Source of the DNA: Bacteroidales bacterium
Lineage (GTDB): Bacteria > Bacteroidota > Bacteroidia > Bacteroidales > P3
Assembly: GCA_017479385.1 (NCBI GenBank)
Contig: JAFVCE010000010.1
Location: forward strand, 1-64,000
Length of the DNA stretch: 64,000 bases
Direction: 5' to 3'
A model generated the notes under the pieces. It did not search any database. It saw only the letters and a list, made by a program, of their open reading frames with translations, and was not told where the DNA came from. Of this stretch, positions 552 through 63,306 are shown one piece after another. Positions within the stretch are counted from its first letter, which is position 1, and the number at the start of each line of letters is the position of its first letter. A program made the translations under genes and the position numbers.

Positions 552-642
552 CATAACTACTTGATTTACAGTGCTTCGGTCGTATTAAAGAGGGGTTAGG
601 GTCGTATTGAGGTCGAACAGCGATTGATATTCAGATAGTTAG
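552..642 (-). repeat. Dispersed 11-nt-unit repeat, copy a
   Basis: This is one of seven related ~90-bp intergenic repeats in the window and the only one on the minus strand. Read on the minus strand, a left arm (642 downward, CTAACTATCTGA) is followed by a core starting at 617 with the 11-nt units TTCGACCTCAA, TACGACCCTAA, CCCCTCTTTAA and TACGACCGAAG. A right arm ending TCAAGTAGTTATG then partly complements the left arm. It lies between two convergent genes. Function is unknown. Confidence 0.85.
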
Positions 643-12633: not shown

Positions 12634-12723
12634 CTAAATAACTGATACACAAGCCTTATTCGACCTCAATACGACCCTAACCCCTCCTTAACACGACCGA
12701 AGTACTATAAATCAGGTAGTTAC
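12634..12723 (+). repeat. Dispersed 11-nt-unit repeat, copy b
   Basis: The core starts at 12659: TTCGACCTCAA, TACGACCCTAA, CCCCTCCTTAA, CACGACCGAAG. The right end (ACTATAAATCAGGTAGTTA) matches copies a and f rather than c and g. The sequence before it, GGGCTTTTTGCCGAGTGCTAA, resembles the TTTTTCGAG...TAA stretch seen left of copies d, f and g. It lies between convergent cargo genes. Confidence 0.85.
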
Positions 12724-25873: not shown

Positions 25874-25963
25874 GTAAGTGGCTGATTGATAGGCGTTGTT
25901 CGACCTCAATACGACCTTAACCCCTCTTTAACCCCTCCTCAACCCTGTTAATCAGCCACTTGC
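25874..25963 (+). repeat. Dispersed 11-nt-unit repeat, copy c
   Basis: The core starts at 25899: TTCGACCTCAA, TACGACCTTAA, CCCCTCTTTAA, CCCCTCCTCAA, CCCTG. This copy has the best arms: AAGTGGCTGATT on the left and AATCAGCCACTT on the right are perfectly complementary over 12 bp. It lies after the luxS terminator and 24 bp from the stop codon of the convergent TPR gene. The sequence between the terminator and the repeat (25706-25873) shows no gene. Confidence 0.88.
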
Positions 25964-25986: not shown

Positions 25987-27420
25987 TCAACGCTGCCGAG
26001 CGTCGGCAAGGAGGGTGCCAACTTCGGGGTCGTCGGCCATCTCGGGGCAGAGGGTGAGAAGCGTGTCGATGGACTCGCTGCCACTTTGCAAAGCCACAAG
26101 GAGAAAGTGGAACATACTGTTGCGCTGGCCGAGGCGGAAGTAGATTGCGGCAAAACGTATGGCGAACTGGGGGCCGTCGTCGGCCGCGGCAGCCCCCTGC
26201 AGGGCTTGGTCGAGCGCGTCGGCATAGCGGCCGGCGCGTATGAGGTAGTCTATGTATGAGGTCCAGTTCTCGTCGGCTTCTGGCTCGCGTTCTATGGCAC
26301 CGCGCAGGGCGAGCTCGGCCTGCTCATGCTCGCCATACTCTTCGTGTAGCGAGCCGAGAAAGCGGAGCACTCGTGCGGGGTCGGGGCTTGAGGTGAGGGC
26401 TGTGGTGGCGCTCTGCACAGCCAGGTAGTACTCGCCCATGGCGCGATAGCAGTCGGCCAACGAGGCGTAGAGGTCGCTCACCAGCAGCGGCGTCGAGAGG
26501 AGCGCAGTGGCACGTATCTCCTGTTCAGCCTGTTTGAAGTATGGCAGGGCGGCCTCGCAGTTGTTCATACGCAGATAGACAGAGCCTATGGCAAAGCTCA
26601 CCACCTCTTTGTGCTCGGCATAGTCGAGGCTGCGGCGCAGGCTCTCGACAGCTTTTAGGGGCTGGCCGGCATCCTCGTAGCAGTCGGCTATTGCCATATA
26701 GGCGTCGAAAAAAGTTTTGTCTATGGCAATGGCGTACTCGAAGGCGTCGATGGCGTGTTCGTACATTCCGAGGGTGTAGTAGGCCTCGGCCAGACAATAC
26801 CAGGCGTAGTGCGAATAGGGTTCGCGCTCCACCATTTTGCGGAAGTAGTCGGCGGCGGCTTCGGGCTGGTCCATATCGGAGTAGGCGTCGAGCAGGCCGA
26901 GCAGCACGTGGTGGTCGTCGGAGCCTGCGGCTACGGCCTTTTTGTAGAACCGGGCCGCGTCGTCGTAGCGGTTAAGCTTGTAATACTCGTCGGCAATATT
27001 GGCATAGACGGTGCCAAGCATATAACCATCGGCTGCAGCTTTTTGGAAGTAGGCAATGGCCATTTCGGGGTGGTCGGTCATGCTGTAGAGTGCACCGAGG
27101 GCGTAGGCCACGTCGGTATTGGTCGGGTCTTTACGCTCGAGGTCGGAGAGTATGGCGAGCGATTGGTCGAACTGGTTGCGGGCGCTGTAGAGGTGCGAGC
27201 GGCGCAGGCGCACCTCGGCCGAGCCAGGGTAGAGGTTTTCGGCGTAGAGTATGGCGGTCTCCATCTTGTCGAGGTCGGCCGTTTCGAGATAGAAATCGAT
27301 GATGACTTCGATTTCGTCGGTGTCGAAGAAGTGGCTTTGGCCTTTGAGTATGGTGTTCTCAAATTCGTTGACGAGGGTTCGAACTTCGTCGTCGTAGTCT
27401 TTGAAGCGGTCGTTGAGCAT
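25987..27420 (-). CDS. Tetratricopeptide-repeat protein
   Basis: A 477-residue cytosolic protein without a signal peptide. Most of it is consecutive TPR-like helix pairs: repeats from ~residue 70 onward such as DVAYALGALYSMTDHPEMAIAYF, VYANIADEYYKLNRYDDAARFY and YAWYCLAEAYYTLGMYEHAID. TPR arrays are protein-binding scaffolds. It begins 21 bp after sprA and is surely co-transcribed with it. That suggests, without proving, a role in envelope assembly or secretion. The C-terminal ~60 residues are less repeat-like. No specific partner can be named. Confidence 0.85.
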   Translation of the reverse strand: MLNDRFKDYDDEVRTLVNEFENTILKGQSHFFDTDEIEVIIDFYLETADLDKMETAILYAENLYPGSAEVRLRRSHLYSARNQFDQSLAILSDLERKDPTNTDVAYALGALYSMTDHPEMAIAYFQKAAADGYMLGTVYANIADEYYKLNRYDDAARFYKKAVAAGSDDHHVLLGLLDAYSDMDQPEAAADYFRKMVEREPYSHYAWYCLAEAYYTLGMYEHAIDAFEYAIAIDKTFFDAYMAIADCYEDAGQPLKAVESLRRSLDYAEHKEVVSFAIGSVYLRMNNCEAALPYFKQAEQEIRATALLSTPLLVSDLYASLADCYRAMGEYYLAVQSATTALTSSPDPARVLRFLGSLHEEYGEHEQAELALRGAIEREPEADENWTSYIDYLIRAGRYADALDQALQGAAAADDGPQFAIRFAAIYFRLGQRNSMFHFLLVALQSGSESIDTLLTLCPEMADDPEVGTLLADARQR

Positions 27421-27441: not shown

Positions 27442-30400
27442 TCAGAACGAGATGCGAGCTGTTATGCCCCCTTTGGTTGTAGAGTTGTCGTAAGAGCTCG
27501 AGATGTAGGGATGGTTGATGTTGGTTGTGATGAAGGCGCGGAGGGTGATGGCAGTGCTGACGGCATATTCGGCCGAGAGTTCGGCCATCCAAACCTGGTT
27601 GCCCGAGGTTATCTGTCCGCCCAAGGCGGGGTTGTAGCTATTAATTTTGCGGATGTTGGTCTTGTTGCTGGTGTAGGTCAGGTTGAGTTGCAACACGAGG
27701 TCGCTCTTGAGCTTGTGGGTGGTTCCGCCAATCTGCACATCGACAGCCACGTCGCGAAAACGGTAGCCAGTGCCGAAGGTGACTCCATCGCTCGAAGTCT
27801 CGGTGAGCTGGTTGTTCGAGAACGAGAGGGCGAGGTTGCGAGTTTTTTTGACCGAGAAGTTGAGGTTGAAACTATTCACCATATTGAGCGAGAGGCGAAT
27901 AAGGGGGTTGAACTGCTCGCTTATCTGCACAGCGTCCATGGTCATGGGCGGAATGTAGTCGCCCGTGCTGTTGAGCACCGTTTCGAGACCGTAGTCATAG
28001 TCGGTGGCCGAGGCTATTGCCGCGTCGGTATAGAAGTTGCCAACGGTGTAGGTAGACGTGTATTTGTGCGACATTGTGATGTTTGTAAACCACTTCTTGA
28101 GGAACTGAACCTTGTTCAAACCGTTATAGTTTATGGTCCAGTTGGGCAGTGGTAGCTTTAGGAACGGCGAGAAAGCCTGGGCTGCAGGGTCGTGGCCGAG
28201 GTAGGTAGCCAAGAACGAGGTGAGGAGCACCGACTGACTGTTGCCGCTATAGCCTGCCGGGTAGAGCTGGCCGTTCATCGTGTCGAGCACTTGCTGCGAG
28301 GTGTAGGGGTCGGGGTTGAGGCTGGCCAAGCGGTTGGCCACGACGGTGCGGTTATCTAGAAAGCGCTGGAAAAGCTCCTCGCTGTTGGCAAAAGCAGTAG
28401 CAAAACTCCAGATGGTGGTATTATACGAGCCGGTCATGATGCGAGACAGGGGTCCGTCGACACGGCCCAAGTCGTTCATATACTTATAATAATACGATTC
28501 GCGCGAGGTGTAGTTCTGTGTAGCGTTGAGCTTGATAGAGAAGTCGCGTATTGGCTCAACCGTGGCGGTGGCCGAGAAGACTCGGTTGGCTGTTAGCTCG
28601 TGAGGCGAGTTGAACAACGTGTCGCTCGACAGTAGGTCGTGGTACAGCAGGCTTTCGGCCACGTCGGTGTCGAAGCCCAAAACGTAGCCCAAGCCAGGCG
28701 ACCAGCTGGTGCGTGGGTCGAGGCCGACAAGCATTGGTTCGCCCAAGTAGCCAGGCAGATGCGAACCACTGGTAGAGTTATAGTTCAAGTTAACATCCTT
28801 AACACTCGAGACCAGTCGCAACCCGAAGTAGGCAACGTTCTTGAGCGTTTCGAGCATCTTGGCGTGGCGTAACGAGTCGGCGTTTGCAGTCGAGTCTACG
28901 GCTTTCTTTGGTTGCTGCTTGGGCTGTGGCAAACGGGGGTTGCGGCCGTTGGTCGGGGTTTGTGTTGCGTAGGCTTTCTTGAGCAAAGGTATCTTGTTAT
29001 AGAGCGTCTGAAAGTTGGCCGAGAGCGAGGTTTGCATGGTTGTCGAGTTCTGCATAGAGCCACCCATCGTGGCCAGTGCAGGCGTGGTCCCTTCATACTT
29101 ATATGTAGTGCGGTAGGTAAAGGGCATTTGAACAAAATCGAGATACGGCAGCTTGTTGATTGGCAGGTTCCAAGTGAGGTTGACTGCCTGCTGGAAGTCT
29201 TGCATGGTGCCACCACGCGAGAGCGAATGCCAAATCGAGTCGCTCGCCGAGCCAGAGTTGATTGGGCCGATTGGCTCGTCGATTCGGGCGTTGGCATTGG
29301 CCGAATAGGTGATGTGTATGCTGCGGGCAAGGTCGTACTGCACCCCATAGTTGCGTTGCCAAGTGAATTGTTTGAAGTATGTCGGCTTGAGTATGACGAG
29401 TGCTGCACTCTTGTTGCGAAGCATGGTCTCCTCGTAGTCGCGATAGACCTCGGTGCTGAACGAGACGTTCTTGGGTAGATAGTAGAAGTTTATGTCTTTA
29501 ATCAGCTTCAAATTATTGTTGTTGAAGAGTTTAACCTTGTCGAACGGACGAATGTTCTTTGGCGAAGTGGGCGAGAAATTATACTGCAAACTGCCACGAT
29601 GTTGGTCTTTGTGGTAGTAGGCTGTTTCGTCGTCGGAAGAGCGTTCTCGGCTGTATGCATACGACATGGTGAAGTTCTCAACATCGTAGAAGTGTGGCGT
29701 CAGCGACTTGGTGCTAATGCGGTCCTTGCGGATGTTGGTAAAGGTGAGGTTGGTGGCCGACTTCTGCTTCTGCGTCATACTGCGCACACTGTCGCGGTCG
29801 TCGACAGAGGTATAGGTCTTCAGGTCGTCGGCAAGCAACACGTCGGGGTCGTATGGGTTATATTCTGGACTGCCAATCTCTTTGTTATAGTCGAGATACA
29901 TGGGCAGATGTACGCCCCACGACTCGGGCAAGAACTTGCCGAGCTCCATGTCGAGGGTGGTCTGGAAGTTGAAGCTGTTGACGAGGTCTACCTTCGACAG
30001 GTGGTCTTCGAGATTGCCAAAACCCGACGAAGAGTAGGCCGTGTAGAGCGACAGGTTGCCGAGGTCGGCCAGATTGGTTCTTGCCAAAGCCATGGCAGCC
30101 CAGCCACCGCGGTTGATGTAGTCGGCCAAGCGCAACTCGTTGACCCACACTATGGCCGACTTGGGCAGCATATTATTGCCGTCGTTCAGGCTCTTCTTCT
30201 TCGGGTTGCGGACGCCTATCATTATCACCTTAACCTTACCCAAGTTGGGCGAACCAAGCACAGAATATTTGCAGCCTTCGATGTTTTCGGTGTAGAGCAT
30301 GACCGACGATACGTTGCCTCCACTGCGAGCCTGACGGTTACGGTTGGTCTTGATTTCGACAAACTTCTGGAGGTCGATGTCTACATTATTTTCGGTGGGC

Positions 30401-33400
30401 CAGATGGCCTCGCGACTGTCGGCAGAGGTGTACCACGGAGTTAGTTTCAGCGGCAGCTCGTATTCGTAATAGTTATTGGTATAGTCGCTGCCAAGGCGCA
30501 CAAAGAGCGCAAGGTCGTCGTCGTCGAGATTATCGGTGGCATACTTCTTCTCGGCGTGTGCATACATTCGCAACGAGCCATAGTGACGCAGGTCGTAGCT
30601 CGAATTGCGATAGATGGCACGGGCGTCGCCGGTGTTGAGGTTATCGATATCGAGCGAGACGGCTTGTTCGTTGAGTTTGGTAAAAGCCGACGAGGATGTA
30701 TACCACGACTCGCGGTACACCCCCGGGGGCAGGACGTAGGGTACAGGCTGGCGACTGCCGTTCTCCTCGATACTGACTGTGGAGATAGAGAAGGAAGTGT
30801 TGGCGTCGCCACCGGTCTGGTAATCGCCTGGTTGGAGGAGGTCTTCGCTATACTTACGCCAAGTGGAATAGACCAAATCGAGTGTGGCGAAACGCAGAAT
30901 GATTGGCTCCGAAAACTGGCTGAGGAACATACGGATAAAGCGTATAGACTGGTAACCGTTGACCTTGCCCACCGTCTGGTCTGGCTCGCGGATGGGTATG
31001 CGGAACTGATACCACTTGCAAGTAGTGGTCTGACCGTTACGCAGTTGCACGCTCGACTCCTGGATGTCGACAATATGGTTCTCGCCAATCTGCATCTTGT
31101 CGGGCGAGAGATTGATGACGTATTGGTAATAGTTTTCGGCCTCGCTGAGGGTATTGTCGTTGTTTATGTCTTCGACGTCGGGGTAAGAGGTAGCCGAGGT
31201 GTTGACTCCGCTGCTGTTGTCGCTATCGCTATTGACTGGCGAGTTGCCTTCGGGATTGTTGTAATATTTGTAACGCTCCACGATACCGGCACCGATTTCG
31301 TCATAATAGTTGCTTGCATAGTGGCGGAAATCGTCGCTCGACGGGTCCGAACTTGCTTGTTGATACGACCCTGACCCGACCCCAAAACGGTCGGCTATGG
31401 CCTGAACATAGTCGGCAAAAAACGACTGCTCGTCATCCATGCCGTGGGTAGAGCTGAGACCGTCGTAGCCAATATCTTGGTATTTGCGGGCAGTTTCGTC
31501 GTTATCGAAGGCGTTGACCATGGGTTGCGTATTAGGCACACGGCCCCAGATAGTGGTATCCACGCCGAGCACATCGTCGGTCGGAGGCAGGCCGTTTTCG
31601 AAACTTTTTCGACCGTCGCGCAAAATATCCTCGCTCACGTCGCCGAGGTTGATGTAGAACTTACCGCCCGTATGGTTTGGATTTTCTATAAAGGGGTCCA
31701 TGAGCCAAAACTCGATAGTTTCGATGTTCTGTGTCTCAAAATCTGTATAATCCAGTTTGCGCATAATGCCAGCCCAACGCGACTGAGGATTGTTAAGGTT
31801 GCCGTCGGCGTCGACGCCTGCGCTGTATGGGCCAGGTGCCACATCGTAGTTGTACGGTCCGCGCTCCGACGGATAGTAGGCCAAGTTTAGGTCGTAGATA
31901 ATGGTCGGTGTGTTAGCTGCAATTTCCTTGTTTGGGAAGACCTCTTGCTCGTATACGCGGCGCGCATATGGCCGAGAAATCTCATCATCGTCAATGCCTG
32001 TAAATCGATTGTTTCGTTCGTAGAAACGATTATCTACGCGGTACCAGGCCATGTGTGCTCTGTTGTAGCCATAGGCAAGGCCTGTACCTGGCGCCGTTTC
32101 GGGGAACATGGGGAGCGTGGTAGCATAATCTTGTGGCGTACTGGCCAAATGCCAAAAGTTGGTACCGCGGAGGTCGATGCTGCTTTCCGCGCCCTCAAAG
32201 TCGTCGATATACGACACGTTGCCCTCGGCCATACCAGTGCGGCTCATGCCGGGGATGAAGTGCGCAAATTCGGCCGTGAGCGAGAGGGTAGACGGGGCTT
32301 TGGTTTGAATGCCTGGCAGGAGGTCTACAGCTTTGGTTATCCATGGCACCTCGTGCCTATAGGTAAGGTCCAAGCCCCAAATTGAGTTGCTCGTGGGCTC
32401 GTCGCCAAAGTTATTTTTTTGCGTCAGAGGCTGCTCCGAAAGGCTCATAAACGTACCTCCGACATTGAAGTCGGGTTCAACTTCGTAATTCAGATGTAGG
32501 CCGAGCATTGTCTTGGTCATCATGCTGAACGAATTGTTCTCGCTACTGACACTGATGGGGGTTCCGCTCGAGAGTATGCTTTCGTTGATTATGCGCACGG
32601 TTCCCATGGTGTAATCTACGGTGTAGTCTACATTTTCGATAAGCGGCACACCGCCAGCTGTCACCGTAACCGAACCTTGAGCCACGCTGTAGCCGAGCGA
32701 TATTTCGCCACTGACGGTTGTGGTGTAGTAGCCTTCGAGGTAGAATTTATTTTTGTCGGCATATTGTTGCGCCAGTGTTTGCGTCATTGTGTAGAGCGAG
32801 TCGAAACAGTAGATGTTGGCGAACTCGTCGTTGTTCAAAATGGCACGTAAATCCTTACCGAATGGTTCAACGTAAGGGAAAAACACTCGACCTGTGGTAG
32901 ACTGAATGAGGCCACCTTTGTAGGCTGCGCTGTCGAACCAGTCGAACACGCCGTCGGCATAATAGTAACTTTGCGAAGCGTCCATACGGTCGAGGCCAAA
33001 AACCTCAATGAGCGGAGTGCCCTCCTTGGGGCCTTCTGTGAAGTAGCCTATCCCAACACCACCCTCACTGCTTTCGTACAGGACATTGAGGCGGAAACCA
33101 TCTTGGCTCAACTGGCTACTTTTCAGGAAGTATACGTTCTTCATCATCAGGCGCCATAGTGGGCCGTGGGTATCGACAGTGGTACTCTTTAACAACTTGA
33201 CTATCAGTGTATTGGGGTCGTTTATACCGTCGGTGGTCAGTTCGCCGACTTGATAGACATTGGTGTCGCCAACAATTTGGTATTGGAAAGCGACGGCCAA
33301 CACTTGGTCGTTGCTCAGCGGCTGGTTGAGGGTAATGAAGCCCAGTTGACGGTTGAAAGTGTACTCGCTGGGGTTGAGCAGGCGGGCGCTTTCGATTTTT

Positions 33401-34620
33401 TCGTAGTCGGTGGCGTTCTCGAAACCGAGTCCCTGCATATACTCGGTGGTGCTGTTAATACTGCGCACAGCTTGCGTGTTGATGAGTTGCAGGAGGTTGT
33501 TGCTTTGGTTCGAAGGGAGAGTTCGGCCGGTGCCGGAAACGCGACGGTTCGACGGGTTCGCCTCGCCCAAATCGGTAAGTGCCAGCAGGTTACGATTTTG
33601 CGTAACCGCAGCTCCGACATTGGTTCGCCACACTTCGAGGCGTATTATCTTGATGTTAGAATTGACTATCGGGAGGGTCGCCATAGCGGTGTTGTAGTTG
33701 TCGTAGAAGTACTGCGCTATGAAGTAGTGGCGGTTTTCTTCGTACTCGTCGGCACGAATTTCGAACTCGTGGCTGCTGGCTCCGCCTTTGACCTGCATAT
33801 TCTCGGTGCTGGTTTGTTTTTGCGACCAAAGAGCATCGACAGAGAATTTGCCGAACTTGAGTTTGGTGTGGAAGCCCATCAACTGCTGACTGCCCTGGAT
33901 GAGAGTGGTGTTGAGCGGGAAGGAAATGTTGCCCACCTCGATTAGTTGCAGGATGTCGTCCTCCTTGCCTTCATGGCGAAGCTTGATTTGGTTCTCGAAA
34001 TCGAAGGTTGCCAGGTTGTTGTAGTTGACATCGAAGTCGAGGAGGTCGCCCAGTTTGACGTTGAGGTTTAGTTGGACGTTGGCGTCGAAGTCGAAGTTGA
34101 CGTAGCTGCGCCTATTGAGGTCGAGCGAAGGGTTGTCGCGATAGTTGTGGATGAGCTGGAAGGTGAGTTCGACGCTGCCACTGGGTGATATTTTTGGTTC
34201 GATGTTACCACCCATGATGCCTTCGATTTTGCGACTGATTTCGCTAAAGCCCGGAATTTTGTCCAAGAAACCTTGCTCCTCGTCCGAACCGTTGTCGGCC
34301 GCGATTTTTTCGTTCCAATATTTATTCATCAGCTGGTCCATCTGCCAGTCTTGATATTCTTGGAACGAGAGGTAGTCGCGACTGAGAACAGTCTCGCCCA
34401 CTTTGGTAATGCGGACATAGGTGCCCGACTGCTCGTCGTACTCTACCGAGGTCGTGATGCCCTGTGGCGTGTAGCCACTGCCCATTTGTTGGAACTGCGA
34501 AGTGTCGGTTTGCGCCTCGACCACGGCCGACGACAAGAGCAACACCAACGCCACCATGAGCGCACAGATGAGGGTGCGCAGGGGCGATTTGGGGGTGGAT
34601 TGGAGTCGGGTTGAGGTCAT
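27442..34620 (-). CDS. sprA: T9SS outer-membrane translocon SprA/Sov
   Basis: At 2392 residues this is the largest gene in the window. It encodes the SprA (Sov in Porphyromonas) giant beta-barrel that forms the type IX secretion channel. The signal peptide (residues 1-36, ending SSAVVEA) is followed by a SprA-type N-terminal region (QGITTSVEYDEQSGTYV, SFQEYQDWQMDQ) and a very long strand-rich barrel domain ending in ITARISF. The terminal Phe is usual for BAM-inserted barrels. It should export the sorting-domain cargo proteins encoded nearby. The ATG lies inside a degenerate unit of the 11-nt array upstream. An in-frame TAA four codons earlier rules out a longer start. The ruvA-sprA order is one I recall from other Bacteroidetes. 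Confidence 0.95.
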   Translation of the reverse strand: MTSTRLQSTPKSPLRTLICALMVALVLLLSSAVVEAQTDTSQFQQMGSGYTPQGITTSVEYDEQSGTYVRITKVGETVLSRDYLSFQEYQDWQMDQLMNKYWNEKIAADNGSDEEQGFLDKIPGFSEISRKIEGIMGGNIEPKISPSGSVELTFQLIHNYRDNPSLDLNRRSYVNFDFDANVQLNLNVKLGDLLDFDVNYNNLATFDFENQIKLRHEGKEDDILQLIEVGNISFPLNTTLIQGSQQLMGFHTKLKFGKFSVDALWSQKQTSTENMQVKGGASSHEFEIRADEYEENRHYFIAQYFYDNYNTAMATLPIVNSNIKIIRLEVWRTNVGAAVTQNRNLLALTDLGEANPSNRRVSGTGRTLPSNQSNNLLQLINTQAVRSINSTTEYMQGLGFENATDYEKIESARLLNPSEYTFNRQLGFITLNQPLSNDQVLAVAFQYQIVGDTNVYQVGELTTDGINDPNTLIVKLLKSTTVDTHGPLWRLMMKNVYFLKSSQLSQDGFRLNVLYESSEGGVGIGYFTEGPKEGTPLIEVFGLDRMDASQSYYYADGVFDWFDSAAYKGGLIQSTTGRVFFPYVEPFGKDLRAILNNDEFANIYCFDSLYTMTQTLAQQYADKNKFYLEGYYTTTVSGEISLGYSVAQGSVTVTAGGVPLIENVDYTVDYTMGTVRIINESILSSGTPISVSSENNSFSMMTKTMLGLHLNYEVEPDFNVGGTFMSLSEQPLTQKNNFGDEPTSNSIWGLDLTYRHEVPWITKAVDLLPGIQTKAPSTLSLTAEFAHFIPGMSRTGMAEGNVSYIDDFEGAESSIDLRGTNFWHLASTPQDYATTLPMFPETAPGTGLAYGYNRAHMAWYRVDNRFYERNNRFTGIDDDEISRPYARRVYEQEVFPNKEIAANTPTIIYDLNLAYYPSERGPYNYDVAPGPYSAGVDADGNLNNPQSRWAGIMRKLDYTDFETQNIETIEFWLMDPFIENPNHTGGKFYINLGDVSEDILRDGRKSFENGLPPTDDVLGVDTTIWGRVPNTQPMVNAFDNDETARKYQDIGYDGLSSTHGMDDEQSFFADYVQAIADRFGVGSGSYQQASSDPSSDDFRHYASNYYDEIGAGIVERYKYYNNPEGNSPVNSDSDNSSGVNTSATSYPDVEDINNDNTLSEAENYYQYVINLSPDKMQIGENHIVDIQESSVQLRNGQTTTCKWYQFRIPIREPDQTVGKVNGYQSIRFIRMFLSQFSEPIILRFATLDLVYSTWRKYSEDLLQPGDYQTGGDANTSFSISTVSIEENGSRQPVPYVLPPGVYRESWYTSSSAFTKLNEQAVSLDIDNLNTGDARAIYRNSSYDLRHYGSLRMYAHAEKKYATDNLDDDDLALFVRLGSDYTNNYYEYELPLKLTPWYTSADSREAIWPTENNVDIDLQKFVEIKTNRNRQARSGGNVSSVMLYTENIEGCKYSVLGSPNLGKVKVIMIGVRNPKKKSLNDGNNMLPKSAIVWVNELRLADYINRGGWAAMALARTNLADLGNLSLYTAYSSSGFGNLEDHLSKVDLVNSFNFQTTLDMELGKFLPESWGVHLPMYLDYNKEIGSPEYNPYDPDVLLADDLKTYTSVDDRDSVRSMTQKQKSATNLTFTNIRKDRISTKSLTPHFYDVENFTMSYAYSRERSSDDETAYYHKDQHRGSLQYNFSPTSPKNIRPFDKVKLFNNNNLKLIKDINFYYLPKNVSFSTEVYRDYEETMLRNKSAALVILKPTYFKQFTWQRNYGVQYDLARSIHITYSANANARIDEPIGPINSGSASDSIWHSLSRGGTMQDFQQAVNLTWNLPINKLPYLDFVQMPFTYRTTYKYEGTTPALATMGGSMQNSTTMQTSLSANFQTLYNKIPLLKKAYATQTPTNGRNPRLPQPKQQPKKAVDSTANADSLRHAKMLETLKNVAYFGLRLVSSVKDVNLNYNSTSGSHLPGYLGEPMLVGLDPRTSWSPGLGYVLGFDTDVAESLLYHDLLSSDTLFNSPHELTANRVFSATATVEPIRDFSIKLNATQNYTSRESYYYKYMNDLGRVDGPLSRIMTGSYNTTIWSFATAFANSEELFQRFLDNRTVVANRLASLNPDPYTSQQVLDTMNGQLYPAGYSGNSQSVLLTSFLATYLGHDPAAQAFSPFLKLPLPNWTINYNGLNKVQFLKKWFTNITMSHKYTSTYTVGNFYTDAAIASATDYDYGLETVLNSTGDYIPPMTMDAVQISEQFNPLIRLSLNMVNSFNLNFSVKKTRNLALSFSNNQLTETSSDGVTFGTGYRFRDVAVDVQIGGTTHKLKSDLVLQLNLTYTSNKTNIRKINSYNPALGGQITSGNQVWMAELSAEYAVSTAITLRAFITTNINHPYISSSYDNSTTKGGITARISF

Positions 34621-34784
34621 GCTAAGGTCGAGTTAAGGTCGGGTTAAGGTCGGGTTGAGGTCGGGTTGAGGTCGGGTTAAGGTCGGGTTAAGGTCGGGTT
34701 GAGGTCGGGTTAAGGTCGGGTTAAGGTCGGGTTGAGGTCGGGTTAAGGTCGGGTTGAGGTCGGGTTGAGGTCGGGTTGAGGTCG
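34602..34784 (+). repeat. 11-nt tandem array between ruvA and sprA
   Basis: The plus strand shows units of AAGGTCGGGTT or GAGGTCGGGTT repeated head to tail: 14 full units and one partial from 34624 to 34784. Two degenerate units (34602-34612, 34613-34623) run into the first codons of sprA. The other strand reads CCCGACCTTAA or CCCGACCTCAA, the same unit as the core of the dispersed repeats. The array is transcribed with the operon. The 11-nt period puts stop codons in all frames, so no protein can be made through it. It fills the whole ruvA-sprA gap. Confidence 0.95.
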
Positions 34785-34788
34785 AAGG

Positions 34789-35391
34789 TTATAGGCGCTT
34801 GAGGGCTTCTTTGATTATCTCCTCTACGGTCATGGGTTGACCGCTGTCGGTGGTCCACTTGCCGGCAGCGAGCACTTTGTCGACCGCTGTCTTGGGGAAG
34901 CCGAGCATGGTGAGAGCCACGGCGGCCTCTTCTTGCTGCTGCGACGACGAGGGGGCTGCGTTGCCAGCTGCAGCACGGAGCTCGGGTGCACCCACCTTGT
35001 CGGCCAGCTCGAGGGCTATGCGCTGTGCCGTCTTGGCTCCTATTCCTTTTATTTTCTGTATCTTCTTGATTTCTTGGGCAGCGATGGCGGCGGTTAGTTC
35101 GTCGACCGTCATCGACGAGAGCATGACCCTCGCAGTTTGCACTCCAACGCCGCTCACCTCGATGAGGAGGCGGAAGAGCGAGCGCTCGGCCTCGTCGGCA
35201 AAGCCGTAGAGCAGGTGAGCATCGTCGCGTATCACCTCGTGTACCAGCAGTTTCACCTCCTGCGCGGGCGAGGCGTTGATGGTTTGATAGGTGTTGAGGC
35301 TGATTTCGAGCAGGTAGCCCACACCGCCACAGTCGACGACGGCGCGAGTGGGTTCGAGGGTTGAAAGATGGCCTGCAATGTATTCGTACAT
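34789..35391 (-). CDS. ruvA: Holliday-junction DNA helicase subunit RuvA
   Basis: RuvA tetramers bind Holliday junctions and load the RuvB motor. Start at the ATG of MYEYIAGHLSTLEPTRAVVDC, giving 200 residues, the usual size. The three family domains are visible: an OB-fold (1-65), tandem helix-hairpin-helix motifs (FRLLIEVSGVGVQTARVML and IKKIQKIKGIGAKTAQRIALEL, ~75-130), and after a Ser/Gln-rich linker the C-terminal RuvB-binding domain (EEAAVALTMLGFPKTAVDKVL). The frame is open 76 codons further upstream, but that part has no family similarity. The stop is 4 bp from the edge of the 11-nt array. Confidence 0.96.
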   Translation of the reverse strand: MYEYIAGHLSTLEPTRAVVDCGGVGYLLEISLNTYQTINASPAQEVKLLVHEVIRDDAHLLYGFADEAERSLFRLLIEVSGVGVQTARVMLSSMTVDELTAAIAAQEIKKIQKIKGIGAKTAQRIALELADKVGAPELRAAAGNAAPSSSQQQEEAAVALTMLGFPKTAVDKVLAAGKWTTDSGQPMTVEEIIKEALKRL

Positions 35392-35414
35392 AATTGGTTT
35401 CGCTGTTTTTGTGG

Positions 35415-36746
35415 TTAATCGTTGAATTGGTAGCCTATGCCCGCGGCCGGCGAACCATCCTGCAGGTGGAAGTCCTCTTCGTCGGGGTCGACAAAGAGCG
35501 GGTCGTCGTTCCATGAGCCGCCTTTGACGATGGAGTGAACAAAGCGGTAGTTGAAGTCGCTCAATCCGCAGTCGTCGAGGCGCACCTCGGTTCGGTCGTA
35601 TGAACCATATATTATACAATCGGTAAAGGTAGCCTCGGTGAGGTTGCGTGGCACAACGTTGCCCTCTGCCGAGAGATACCAGTTGTTGAGTATCACGCCC
35701 TCGCAGTTGCGCGAAGCGTAGCGCCAGTAGTTGGCAAAGGTAGACTGGGCAAAGGTGTATCGGCCACCCATTTGGAGGGCCAAAGTGGCTGTGCCACAGG
35801 TATGAATAAGCACGTTGGTTCCTTCAATCCAAGCACCGCGCCCCAGCAAGCCGCCGTCGGAGCAGTGGCGCACTTCGGCGTTCGATATGCGGAGCGTGGG
35901 GCTGAAGTTGACGTTGGTATCGGCCACGATGCCGATGGTGCTGTTTTCGACGAGCACGTGGTCCATCACGTTGTCGCGGCTGCCAGCCATGAGGTGAATG
36001 TAGCCCCATTGTCCGGGCAGGTAGTCGTACCAGCCATCGTGGCGTAGCGAGCTGAAGACGACCGGCTGGTCGGCGCTGCCTTGCGCCACGAGCGAAGCTC
36101 CGTCGATTACCATGAGGTAACTTTCGGGGGCAAAATAAAGTTCGTCACCAGCTTGCAGGTTGAGCACCTGGAGCGAGTCGACGCACGCAATGCCAAAGAT
36201 GACGTGCGGACGCTGATGGTCCCACGTGGCACAATCGAGGGCATAGGCGCGACCGACGCTGTCGGGCAGGTGATACACCGCGTTGCGACCCCAAGCCAGC
36301 AACGGCAACGACTGCGACGAGCCACCTTTATAAGTAAACTCGACAGCGTCGTCGTCGACCACAAAGGGCGAAAGTTGGTCGTTAGGGTCTATGTTGGCAT
36401 GAACAAAAATAAAAATACTGTCGCCAGCCGCAAGCTCCACATTGCGAGCCACGAGCGAGGTGTCGCCGTCGACATTGAGGCGGAAACGGCTCGAACGGCC
36501 TTTTTTTAAAGTGACCGAGGTGATGAGGACATCGTCGTGGTGGGGATTATAGACCTTGAACCTGCGCGTTGTCGACCCCATGGTGGTAAACACCGTGTCG
36601 AAGGTAAGTGTATCGCAGTCGAACTGCAGTTTCAGACCGCTATCTTGCAGATACACAGGCTCGTTGGTGCAAGCCGTTGGCATCAACTGCAACACTACTG
36701 CCACCAAGATGGCGAGCACGATTGAGGTTGTTTTGTTCAATTTCAC
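35415..36746 (-). CDS. Probable parallel beta-helix lipoprotein
   Basis: A 443-residue exported protein. The N-terminal hydrophobic segment ends in MPTAC, so lipid modification at Cys26 is likely, though the lipobox is not ideal. Residues ~30-140 look like a beta-sandwich (DTVFTTMGSTTRRFKVYNP). The rest has the repeating short-strand pattern of a right-handed parallel beta-helix (VVFSSLRHDGW, VLVENSTIGIVADTNV, TDCIIYGSYD). Such folds often bind or cleave polysaccharide, but I see no catalytic residues. The start is GTG, because no ATG fits. A perfect 14-bp palindrome (36746-36759) overlaps the start codon. It lies between the M64 peptidase gene and ruvA in the sprA operon. Confidence 0.8.
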   Translation of the reverse strand: MKLNKTTSIVLAILVAVVLQLMPTACTNEPVYLQDSGLKLQFDCDTLTFDTVFTTMGSTTRRFKVYNPHHDDVLITSVTLKKGRSSRFRLNVDGDTSLVARNVELAAGDSIFIFVHANIDPNDQLSPFVVDDDAVEFTYKGGSSQSLPLLAWGRNAVYHLPDSVGRAYALDCATWDHQRPHVIFGIACVDSLQVLNLQAGDELYFAPESYLMVIDGASLVAQGSADQPVVFSSLRHDGWYDYLPGQWGYIHLMAGSRDNVMDHVLVENSTIGIVADTNVNFSPTLRISNAEVRHCSDGGLLGRGAWIEGTNVLIHTCGTATLALQMGGRYTFAQSTFANYWRYASRNCEGVILNNWYLSAEGNVVPRNLTEATFTDCIIYGSYDRTEVRLDDCGLSDFNYRFVHSIVKGGSWNDDPLFVDPDEEDFHLQDGSPAAGIGYQFND

Positions 36747-36773: not shown

Positions 36774-38123
36774 TTATTTTGTGTAAAGGTCAAAAATATC
36801 GTTCATTCGTTGGCTACACACAGGGCAATAGGGCGCGTAGTCGCGCATCATACAGTGCATCGTGGGTCTGAAAATGCCTGTAGCCTGGTATCCGGCGCCC
36901 TCGTAGCAGCCCACTGGGCCACACTGGGTTGGAGGGAGCGTATCGTTGTCGGGTGTTGGTATCGGTACGCCGGCGGCCACGAGGTTGCGCCACTTGGCAC
37001 CGAAATCGATGAGCGCGGTAATGTTGGGTTCGAGGGGTTCGAAGCGCGACGAATGGATGGAATTGTAACTCAAATCGGGGTCTACATATTCGTCGGCCAA
37101 GCCACCAATCGAGTGTCCCAACTCGTGGGTAAGGATAAGGGGGGCCATGCGGTCGGTCGAGACTGTGGCGTAGAAGTTATAGATTGCTCCGCCGCCATAC
37201 TTGTCGGCTCCGACCATGATAACAATATAGTCGAACGGCACAGCGTCGAGCAGGTCGTGCAGACGGAATAGGTTGAAAGTCATCAAGTAACGGTCCGACC
37301 CGAACACGCCGTAGGTGCTTCCCAAAGCGCTCTCGACCTTGCGGCCGAGGGCTGGGTTCGACACTCCTTCTTCGTCGCCCAAAAGGAGCAAGCCACGCAC
37401 GTTGAAGTCGGTGTGGCGGCTGGCGAAGGGGGCGTGGCCAAAAATGTAGTCGGCAAAACGGCGCAGGTCGTCGCGCATACGGCGGTCGTCGTTGGGGCCG
37501 TAGCCTTCGGGCACAATCACGATGTCGACCTTGCGCTCCGACGGGCCGTTCAGTAACAGGTCGCGCACTTGGGCCGACTGTTGAACGTGTTCGACCGCAG
37601 TCTCGCGAGGCGAAAAAACAAACGAAGCTTGTTTTACGAAGCGCTGGCGGTCGTCGCGTTTCTCGAACACTATCAAGGTTTTAGCTTGCGGCCAGGGCAG
37701 GTTGACCACCTCTTCGAACTCGCGACTTTGGTGCTTGGCCTCGTAGGTGTCGCGATACTCGCGGAAGAGGGTGTTGTAACATTTGGTATAAACCGTGCGG
37801 CCCGACTCGACGTCTATCATCGACACACGATAGTCTCCGTTGTCGAATGGGTCAATCAACGTCGTGCGAGAGCCGCTCCAGGCAGTGCTTTTCTCGACAA
37901 AACGAGAGAGTTCGATGGTGTCGCCCGCGGCGTTGCCGCGACGGATGTAATCAACGCGAAGCGTGCGGCCGTCGAACCAGCGGCCAAAGTCGTCGGCCGA
38001 TGCGACAAGGGTCGAAACGAGCAAAATCAGCACTAAACTGGCTTTTTTTGCGGTTGCCAAAAAGTTCGTGTAATTTTGGTGCCTGAGTGGGTTCGGGTTC
38101 ATACTTTTGATTACTTTTTTCAC
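36774..38123 (-). CDS. Secreted M64-family metallopeptidase (IgA peptidase M64 type)
   Basis: A 449-residue exported zinc peptidase. The catalytic motif HELGHSIGGLADEY starts at His333 (zinc ligands His333 and His337, catalytic Glu334). The region before it (KVDIVIVPEGYGPNDDRRMRDD..., VIMVGADKYGGGA) is typical of M64. An N-terminal M64-type beta-rich domain precedes the catalytic part. The signal segment is KKASLVLILLVSTLVASA; the first ATG is used, and a second Met seven codons later is an equally good start. No T9SS sorting domain is present, so it is probably periplasmic or released by another route. It is the first gene of the run ending in sprA and the TPR gene. Confidence 0.9.
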   Translation of the reverse strand: MKKVIKSMNPNPLRHQNYTNFLATAKKASLVLILLVSTLVASADDFGRWFDGRTLRVDYIRRGNAAGDTIELSRFVEKSTAWSGSRTTLIDPFDNGDYRVSMIDVESGRTVYTKCYNTLFREYRDTYEAKHQSREFEEVVNLPWPQAKTLIVFEKRDDRQRFVKQASFVFSPRETAVEHVQQSAQVRDLLLNGPSERKVDIVIVPEGYGPNDDRRMRDDLRRFADYIFGHAPFASRHTDFNVRGLLLLGDEEGVSNPALGRKVESALGSTYGVFGSDRYLMTFNLFRLHDLLDAVPFDYIVIMVGADKYGGGAIYNFYATVSTDRMAPLILTHELGHSIGGLADEYVDPDLSYNSIHSSRFEPLEPNITALIDFGAKWRNLVAAGVPIPTPDNDTLPPTQCGPVGCYEGAGYQATGIFRPTMHCMMRDYAPYCPVCSQRMNDIFDLYTK

Positions 38124-38138
38124 GTTTTTCGATTTGCA

Positions 38139-38147
38139 AAGTTACAA
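38139..38147 (-). promoter_or_regulatory. Bacteroidetes -7 box (TAACTTTGC)
   Basis: Minus-strand TAACTTTGC 15 nt before the first ATG of the M64 gene. It probably drives M64, beta-helix, ruvA, sprA and TPR together. The short leader slightly favours the second Met as start. Confidence 0.65.
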
Positions 38148-38334
38148 ATTTTTGTCGACATGACAAAATAAAAAGAGGCTGGCCGAACCGACATATTTGT
38201 AGCACATTGACGTTCAGACTGGTCGAGACACGGACGCAACTTCCGGCTCGACAGGCATTAGACGGGGCTTCACGCGCAGGATAAAAAAAGTGTGGATTGG
38301 GAAAGTTTTTTGGCGCCGATTCGGTTTTTTTGTG

Positions 38335-41704: not shown

Positions 41705-41796
41705 GTTAAATGCCTCAGTATCAAGCGTTGTTCGACCTCAATACGACCTTAACCCCTCTTTAACCCCTCCTCAACCCTGGTTTTCAAGTGTTTAGA
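41705..41796 (+). repeat. Dispersed 11-nt-unit repeat, copy d
   Basis: The core starts at 41731 and is identical to copy c over all four 11-nt units plus CCCTG. The arms here are weakly complementary. The 41514-41704 stretch before it has no gene. It has several GGGCAAGAATCGGGCAAAAATCG-like phrases that also occur left of copy b (near 12605), which suggests the mobile or duplicated unit was once longer. The repeat lies between the convergent ung and exbD genes. Confidence 0.85.
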
Positions 41797-53290: not shown

Positions 53291-53384
53291 AACTAACTGC
53301 CTCAATATCAAGCCTTGTTCGACCTCAACACGACCCTAACCCCTCTCTAACACCTCCCCAACACTGACAATCAAACACTTACAC
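53291..53384 (+). repeat. Dispersed 11-nt-unit repeat, copy e
   Basis: The core starts at 53318: TTCGACCTCAA, CACGACCCTAA, CCCCTCTCTAA, CACCTCCCCAA, CACTG. It is the most diverged copy, and its arms match at about 9 of 15 positions. It lies between glyS and the next co-directional gene, after the glyS terminator and ~60 bp before the promoter of the peptidase. Confidence 0.8.
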
Positions 53385-55832: not shown

Positions 55833-55923
55833 GTAAGTTACTGATTGTCAATGCTTGTTCGACCTCAATACGACCTTAACCCCTCTTTAACACGACTTAA
55901 GGACTATAAATCACGTAGTTAGG
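55833..55923 (+). repeat. Dispersed 11-nt-unit repeat, copy f
   Basis: The core starts at 55858: TTCGACCTCAA, TACGACCTTAA, CCCCTCTTTAA, CACGACTTAAG. The right end ACTATAAATCACGTAGTTAGG matches copies a and b. TTTTTTTGAGGTTCGTAA precedes the core. It lies between the ribE promoter and the terminator of the hydrogenase operon, so here both flanking genes are on the minus strand. The 55613-55832 stretch shows no gene. Confidence 0.85.
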
Positions 55924-62963: not shown

Positions 62964-63055
62964 CCTAACTGTCTGATTATCAAGCGTTGTTCGACCTCAA
63001 TACGACCTTAACCCCTCTTTAATACGACCTCAACCCTGAGAATCAGTCATTTAGG
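62964..63055 (+). repeat. Dispersed 11-nt-unit repeat, copy g
   Basis: The core starts at 62990: TTCGACCTCAA, TACGACCTTAA, CCCCTCTTTAA, TACGACCTCAA, CCCTG. The arms 62964-62981 and 63038-63055 match at 15 of 18 positions (CCTAACTGTCTGATTATC against the complement of GAGAATCAGTCATTTAGG). It lies between convergent helicase and rnr genes, directly after the helicase terminator. Confidence 0.88.
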
Positions 63056-63259
63056 AGGGGGTATTTTTTAGCAATCCAACAGCTGTTTTTGGGGATTGTG
63101 GAAGTGGGTCCGCCGAGGTCGGCGAGGTGTTTTTTGCGAGCTTGGCGGCAGGCTGATAAAAAGAGTTGGCGAGGCTGATAGTGGGGAGGGAGGAATGGTT
63201 TGCGGGTTCGCTGGCGGGGAGGAGTGAGTGGTTGGCAGGAGAGCTGGGTGGTCTGAAGA

Positions 63260-63306
63260 CGTTGTTAATGAGGCGCCCGCCTGCGGCGGGCGCCTCATTA
63301 ACAACG
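63260..63306. terminator. Strong hairpin before rnr 3' end
   Basis: A perfect 22-bp stem (arms 63260-63281 and 63285-63306) with a 3-nt loop. It begins 13 bp beyond the rnr stop and is placed to end rnr transcription on the minus strand. The 63056-63259 stretch before it shows no gene. Confidence 0.8.

Follow-up and report, generated by a model that had tools for sequence, protein, structure and literature searches.

An 11-nucleotide tandem array fills the ruvA–sprA junction of a Bacteroidales genome and varies in copy number between sister species

The junction between ruvA and the secretion gene sprA in this genome of an uncultured Bacteroidales bacterium is occupied by about 16 head-to-tail copies of an 11-nt unit. 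We interpret this array, with a probability of roughly 55%, as a minisatellite that expanded in this lineage at a junction inside an operon, thereby uncoupling sprA from ruvA, and that acts, if at all, on the RNA; the part of this reading that concerns origin is, taken by itself, likely. Copy number differs between sister species at a conserved gene junction ahead of a core part of the T9SS, and if array length affects sprA, the array would constitute a heritable control of protein secretion, exerted through the message rather than the promoter.

Among the 16 rows returned by Tandem Repeats Finder for the window (the whole stretch of 64,000 nt analysed), the top score belongs to this array (34605..34784, minus strand; period 11, 16.4 copies, 91% match, 0% indels), whose unit reads CCCGACCTYAA in the sense direction of both ruvA and sprA. 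Thirteen exact units lie at 34633-34775 on the minus strand, seven ending in TTAA and six in TCAA, and the two variants are mixed, in the order C C C T C T T C T T C C T T T C from the ruvA side. With up to one mismatch allowed, 21 matches to the unit are found across the window; shuffled sequences average 1.9, and none of 100 reached 21. The gap from the ruvA stop (end 34789) to the sprA ATG (start 34620) measures 168 nt, all of it repeat except the 4 nt CCTT adjoining the stop, and decayed units (..TCGACCTTAGC|ATGACCTCAAC|CCGACTCCAA) span the ATG and continue over the first sprA codons, such that the start codon sits in the decayed end of the array. The array is real, and its copy number could be misstated by the draft assembly. 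The original prediction of an array of some 16 units with mixed TTAA and TCAA variants, filling the gap and containing the start codon in decayed units, thus holds on all these points, the gap being filled to within 4 nt and the decayed units following from the unit register over the ATG. It had also equated the array unit with that of the dispersed repeats in the same DNA; the two are related but not identical, the exact unit being confined in the window to the array. Across the whole genome, overlapping exact unit pairs number 16, of which 12 fall within the array and the other 4 are spread over three sites. When a looser pattern of three units is allowed up to two mismatches, the 2.28-Mb genome yields 88 matches; among the matches listed (40 of 88), 20 are exact three-unit matches, 12 of them within the array. 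The array is the longest exact run, and a long run of diverged units may be present among the other 48 matches.

The genes on either side are well defined. sprA (also sov; 27442..34620, minus strand, 2392 aa) encodes the T9SS outer membrane translocon (TIGR04189, 2361 bits against a cut-off of 200), and ruvA (34789..35391, minus strand, 200 aa), whose stop lies 4 nt before the array, matches the equivalog TIGR00084 (196 bits against a cut-off of 85). Both belong to a run of five same-strand genes in the order M64 peptidase, 443-aa protein, RuvA, SprA and TPR protein, with successive gaps of 27, 23, 168 and 21 nt. The run starts with an M64 peptidase family gene (36774..38123, minus strand; PF09471 and PF16217), followed by a 443-aa open reading frame (35415..36746, minus strand) that has no Pfam or NCBIfam match at 1e-5 and ends 23 nt before the ruvA start, and closes with a TPR-repeat protein gene (25987..27420, minus strand) 21 nt after sprA.

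The promoter motif of Bacteroidota, TANNTTTG, is over-represented, with 55 occurrences in the window against 24.7 expected. On the sprA strand it is absent between sprA and 35735, a stretch that includes the array and ruvA; a promoter in or beside the repeat, as in promoter-tuning repeats, was thus not found by this search. Further upstream on the same strand the motif stands alone at 35735, 36404 and 36791, the fuller TTTG-N19-TANNTTTG occurs with one mismatch at 36404-36434, and its nearest exact match (TTTG-N19-TAACTTTG, 38137..38167, minus strand) lies 3.5 kb upstream, directly ahead of the M64 gene. No intrinsic terminators were found on the sprA strand in 34500-35700. Because the promoter motif is absent nearby and the nearest exact match precedes five same-strand genes, the array probably forms part of a shared operon transcript, as a 168-nt spacer that is transcribed but not translated, with stop codons in all three frames of the gap. 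As a counterpoint to co-transcription, the lone copies of the motif, or promoters of other types, may start transcription closer to sprA.

The nearest relatives differ sharply at this junction. The SprA N-terminus, used as query against 120 genomes of the genus, gave a match in 113, and a tree of RuvA and the SprA N-terminus from 27 of the 30 nearest loci (three without a RuvA match were dropped) places the window species with G115 and G089 in one clade with a support of 100/100. G115 (apparently one genome with G099 and L039, which show an identical gap) has an ATG in frame with sprA immediately after its ruvA stop, so that the gap is apparently 0 nt; it would be 51 or 60 nt if a later in-frame start were used. 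The G089 gap is 66 nt long and, by eye, its last 44 nt are four 11-nt units of a variant of its own, positioned relative to the ATG in the register found in the window species; this gap was not called significant by the array detector of the genus survey described below. On the basis of one genome per species, the three sisters therefore have about 15, about 4 (by eye) and apparently 0 units before the ATG in the window species, G089 and G115, respectively. The tree does not settle which of the three branched off first, so growth of the array in the window species, shrinkage in G089 and loss in G115 are indistinguishable.

For the wider genus, we surveyed 90 of the 113 genomes, namely the 30 closest ones plus the 60 that rank next by score, G006 left out (the L261 stretch being shortened by a contig end), and RuvA is encoded directly upstream of sprA in 81 of them. 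The tested region begins at the ruvA stop and ends where the SprA alignment starts, any unaligned sprA start included, and is shorter than 20 nt in 3 of the 81. Arrays were called where the score beat both the second-best of 100 base shuffles and 12, a rule whose shuffle part leads one to expect about one false call. A significant array is present in 27 regions and none in 51, with periods of 11 (nine regions), 22 (two, each unit being two 11-nt units by eye), 7 (seven), 8 (seven), and 9 and 12 (one each); the window array has the largest copy number. Unit sequences are mostly unrelated, and some near relatives have units in common, so the 27 arrays do not amount to 27 independent events. Neither is the ruvA–sprA gap unique, since arrays were found elsewhere in the relatives' loci too.

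These comparisons bear on the original proposal that units spaced by about one helical turn place protein-binding sites on one face of the DNA. A helically phased array of DNA-bound protein tuning the sprA promoter by copy number would agree with a period held at 11 without indels, and 11 nt is, by a small margin, the commonest period in other species (8 regions, or 10 with the two 22-nt arrays, whereas periods of 7 and 8 nt account for 7 regions each). Such a promoter-proximal operator nevertheless has no copy of TANNTTTG to act on in the array or ruvA on the sprA strand, the nearest exact promoter match stands before five genes, and in G115 the two genes apparently touch. One conserved binding protein is ill-suited to arrays of mostly unrelated units with periods of 7, 8, 9, 11, 12 and 22 nt in other species. 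Phasing is also weak for B-form DNA, as 11.0 against 10.5 bp per turn gives a drift of about 17 degrees per unit and some 270 over 16 units, although an in vivo helical repeat nearer 11 bp would relax this objection. We regard this reading as very improbable.

Relatives of the array unit are scattered through the genome as short elements in which, by eye, two to four 11-nt units lie between inverted ends of more than one type. The window contains seven of their cores, at 596..618 on the minus strand and, on the plus strand, at 12658..12680, 25898..25920, 41730..41752, 53317..53339, 55857..55879 and 62989..63011, which use CGACCTCAA-NN-CGACCYTAA and further variants. In the whole genome the core has 191 matches with up to three mismatches, a count that includes the array and partial copies, against 0 for the reversed control. 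A two-unit pattern, which differs from the core pattern used for the window genome, has 310 matches in G099, 56 in G089, 18 in G003 (reversed control 2) and 2 in G103 (control 1), with none in G100, G101 and G102; three-unit matches occur in 3 of 99 sampled genomes (the window genome, G089 and G003; G099 was outside this sample). The unit family is abundant in the three sister species, rare in the genus and, given the G003 matches, not confined to the three-species clade. CCCGACCTYAA itself is common among the matches listed in G099 and nearly array-confined in the window genome.

A census of gaps of at least 80 nt, based on a home-made gene caller and counting runs of two or more units, shows where these elements reside. 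In contig C5 plus the window, unit runs occupy 29 of 36 convergent gaps, 3 of 37 divergent gaps and 12 of 87 tandem gaps, the sprA array being one of the 12, with runs in 1 of 160 shuffled gaps; in 744 kb of G099 the counts are 44 of 51, 3 of 56 and 23 of 118 (shuffled control 0 of 120 gaps). This pattern fits elements that are tolerated or used at gene ends and that act as DNA or not at all. In tandem gaps of 60-900 nt, 19 elements are sense and 16 antisense, which speaks against a strand-specific RNA role for the dispersed elements and led us to reject Rho termination as their general function; four tests linked their orientation significantly neither to the local GC skew nor to the strand of the genes (p 0.06 to 0.45). 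Only four orthologous convergent gene pairs could be compared between the window genome and G099 (elements in both for one, in the window genome only for one, in neither for two), and the idea that elements replace intrinsic terminators met a mixed outcome. With clade-specific 11-nt units in most convergent gaps of two species and mostly unrelated arrays before sprA across the genus, the old question of why short-period repeats spread in some bacteria becomes open to direct comparison.

Several other accounts of the dispersed elements were rejected. A single stable fold does not describe them: two of four folded well beyond shuffles (z -8.9 for the element at 25898..25920, whose ends form a long stem, and -6.1 for one in G099) and two did not (z 0.15 and 0.05). 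No RNA family matched the window at gathering score, and among 20 element loci there were three weak sub-gathering matches (E 0.12 to 0.64), all in L160, which we took as chance. Unit runs also enter coding frames, with about seven units in antisense within a FolC/Mur ligase-like gene, so assigned by eye (L146, C5:78420-78498), and three units in a variable loop of a membrane-protein-like frame (L147, C10:29171); such coding-region runs cannot be read as clean insertions, as the loop varies in all orthologues seen.

Turning to the RNA, the array contains 48% C and 10% G, is among three stretches with such a C excess on either strand of the 64 kb, and its transcript would fold no better than shuffles (minimum free energy -6.1 against a shuffled mean of -6.8). 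Rho utilization (rut) sites have more C than G across 78 nt and a cytosine every 11-13 nt, according to the accessible part of one study (PMC6407284), and the array conforms to this composition, being C-rich, G-poor and unstructured with cytosines about 11 nt apart. A rut site is further expected to be free of ribosomes and to have a hairpin behind it at which RNA polymerase pauses. It differs from rut sites in being a near-exact tandem repeat whose dispersed relatives have no strand preference. The genome encodes Rho (642-aa frame), and the Rho of Bacteroides thetaiotaomicron is, as far as the accessible sources go, under active study. Because the dispersed elements lack strand bias and many arrays of other species are not C-rich, Rho loading would at best be a property of this array's own unit, and an effect of Rho on the sprA message seems doubtful. 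Another of the three strongest C-over-G stretches lies at 63147-63266 on the minus strand.

Combining these observations, we propose that a small group of 11-nt units of the clade's own type, located at the ruvA–sprA junction, expanded head to tail to about 16 units, presumably by replication slippage. The array would then be co-transcribed with the operon and not translated through; being transcribed and having stops in all three frames, it would separate sprA from ruvA by 168 nt of C-rich, G-poor and unstructured RNA. Such a spacer would remove ruvA–sprA translational coupling and offer a Rho-loading-like stretch, and through these two effects more units would give less sprA message per ruvA message. 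We infer that any effect on sprA is most likely exerted at the RNA level, where the copy-number tuning put forward in the original prediction is possible and would be more likely to operate.

Neutral repeat expansion, without selected or measurable consequences, is a possible though not the favoured reading; any spacer would then serve transcription and translation of sprA equally well. That 27 of 81 species carry arrays, mostly differing in unit and period, and that none was detected in the other 54, suggests a loosely constrained spacer, and the unit run in a non-conserved loop of a membrane protein points in the same direction; operon gaps of apparently 0 and 168 nt, however, differ greatly in coupling. 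A broader reading that takes in the whole genus strikes us as improbable: its short-repeat families would change fast, with spacing kept (11 nt in this clade) and sequence free, would serve as transcription insulators or supercoil buffers in convergent gaps (more than 80% of them in two species sampled in part), and the sprA array would be an operon-expanded, length-tunable attenuator of the translocon.

The reading we rate lowest is that of a ribosome standby leader, in which the unstructured array helps ribosomes, for example via protein S1, to start at sprA. Its premise is an organism that relies little on Shine-Dalgarno pairing, and the array RNA has no more predicted structure than shuffled sequence does, with its end at the ATG; the sister species G115, however, apparently does without any gap. 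Binding of S1, cold shock or Csr proteins has been proposed for start-codon-adjacent TAACTGA repeats in the accessible part of a report on these heptamers (PMC4679880).

Those TAACTGA heptamers, direct repeats of Beggiatoaceae, Cyanobacteria and some Bacteroidetes, resemble the array in being intergenic and often placed just before a start codon, and in forming long arrays in single Bacteroidetes species, which close relatives with a shorter gap at the matching place lack; they differ in having a 7-nt unit of other sequence, and the accessible text describes no dispersed element with inverted ends (PMC4679880). The nearest published counterpart that we found is BrickBuilt of Porphyromonas gingivalis, a 23-nt minisatellite in a MITE present at 19 genomic places in 1 to 22.8 copies, with a leader and a tail with IS5-like terminal repeats in most copies and both missing in 3 of 19; one copy adjoins sprA (PMC4596501, accessible part). 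From the locus-tag order and strands in Table 1 of that report, this copy (BrickBuilt_13) appears to lie downstream, not upstream, of sprA. Like BrickBuilt as described there, our array is an intergenic tandem array of one short unit, a head-to-tail minisatellite belonging to a scattered family of variable length. Unlike it, the array has an 11-nt rather than 23-nt unit and no leader, tail or terminal inverted repeats, abutting the coding sequences of ruvA and sprA directly (CCTT aside), and because leader, tail and unit length all fail to agree, we do not file it as a BrickBuilt member.

The dispersed elements, as distinct from the array, resemble REP/BIME sequences, as far as the accessible sources describe these, in being short, mostly outside genes, bounded by inverted ends and present in more than 100 copies per genome; they differ in their internal 11-nt units. 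A REP/RAYT origin was rejected, as the REP-associated Y1 transposase (PF01797) has no match in the window genome or G099; G089 and G003 have one match each. Searches of the open-licence literature for 11-bp tandem repeats, REPs of convergent genes in Bacteroidetes and dispersed repeats of rumen Bacteroidales returned nothing on this system.

The surveyed loci contain further features of their own. The motif GCGTTT..GTTAA, with one substitution allowed, precedes sprA in 28 of the 81 regions (among loci L229-L310), the match in L260 being a chance one within that locus's own array, and a CAATA motif lies 21 nt upstream of it in 21 of the 28, often in a hairpin loop by eye. Together they are possibly a conserved sprA leader or promoter, missing in the other 53 regions, the window's clade included. 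By eye, an approximate reverse complement of the unit stands ahead of the 11-nt arrays in the ruvA–sprA gaps of L240, L246, L247 and L251, so that the unit itself could be the 3' arm of a hairpin with its tandem copies behind it. In another Bacteroidales genome, a 144-nt tandem repeat of 4.7 copies with 95% match lies upstream of ruvA (L058:1533-2207).
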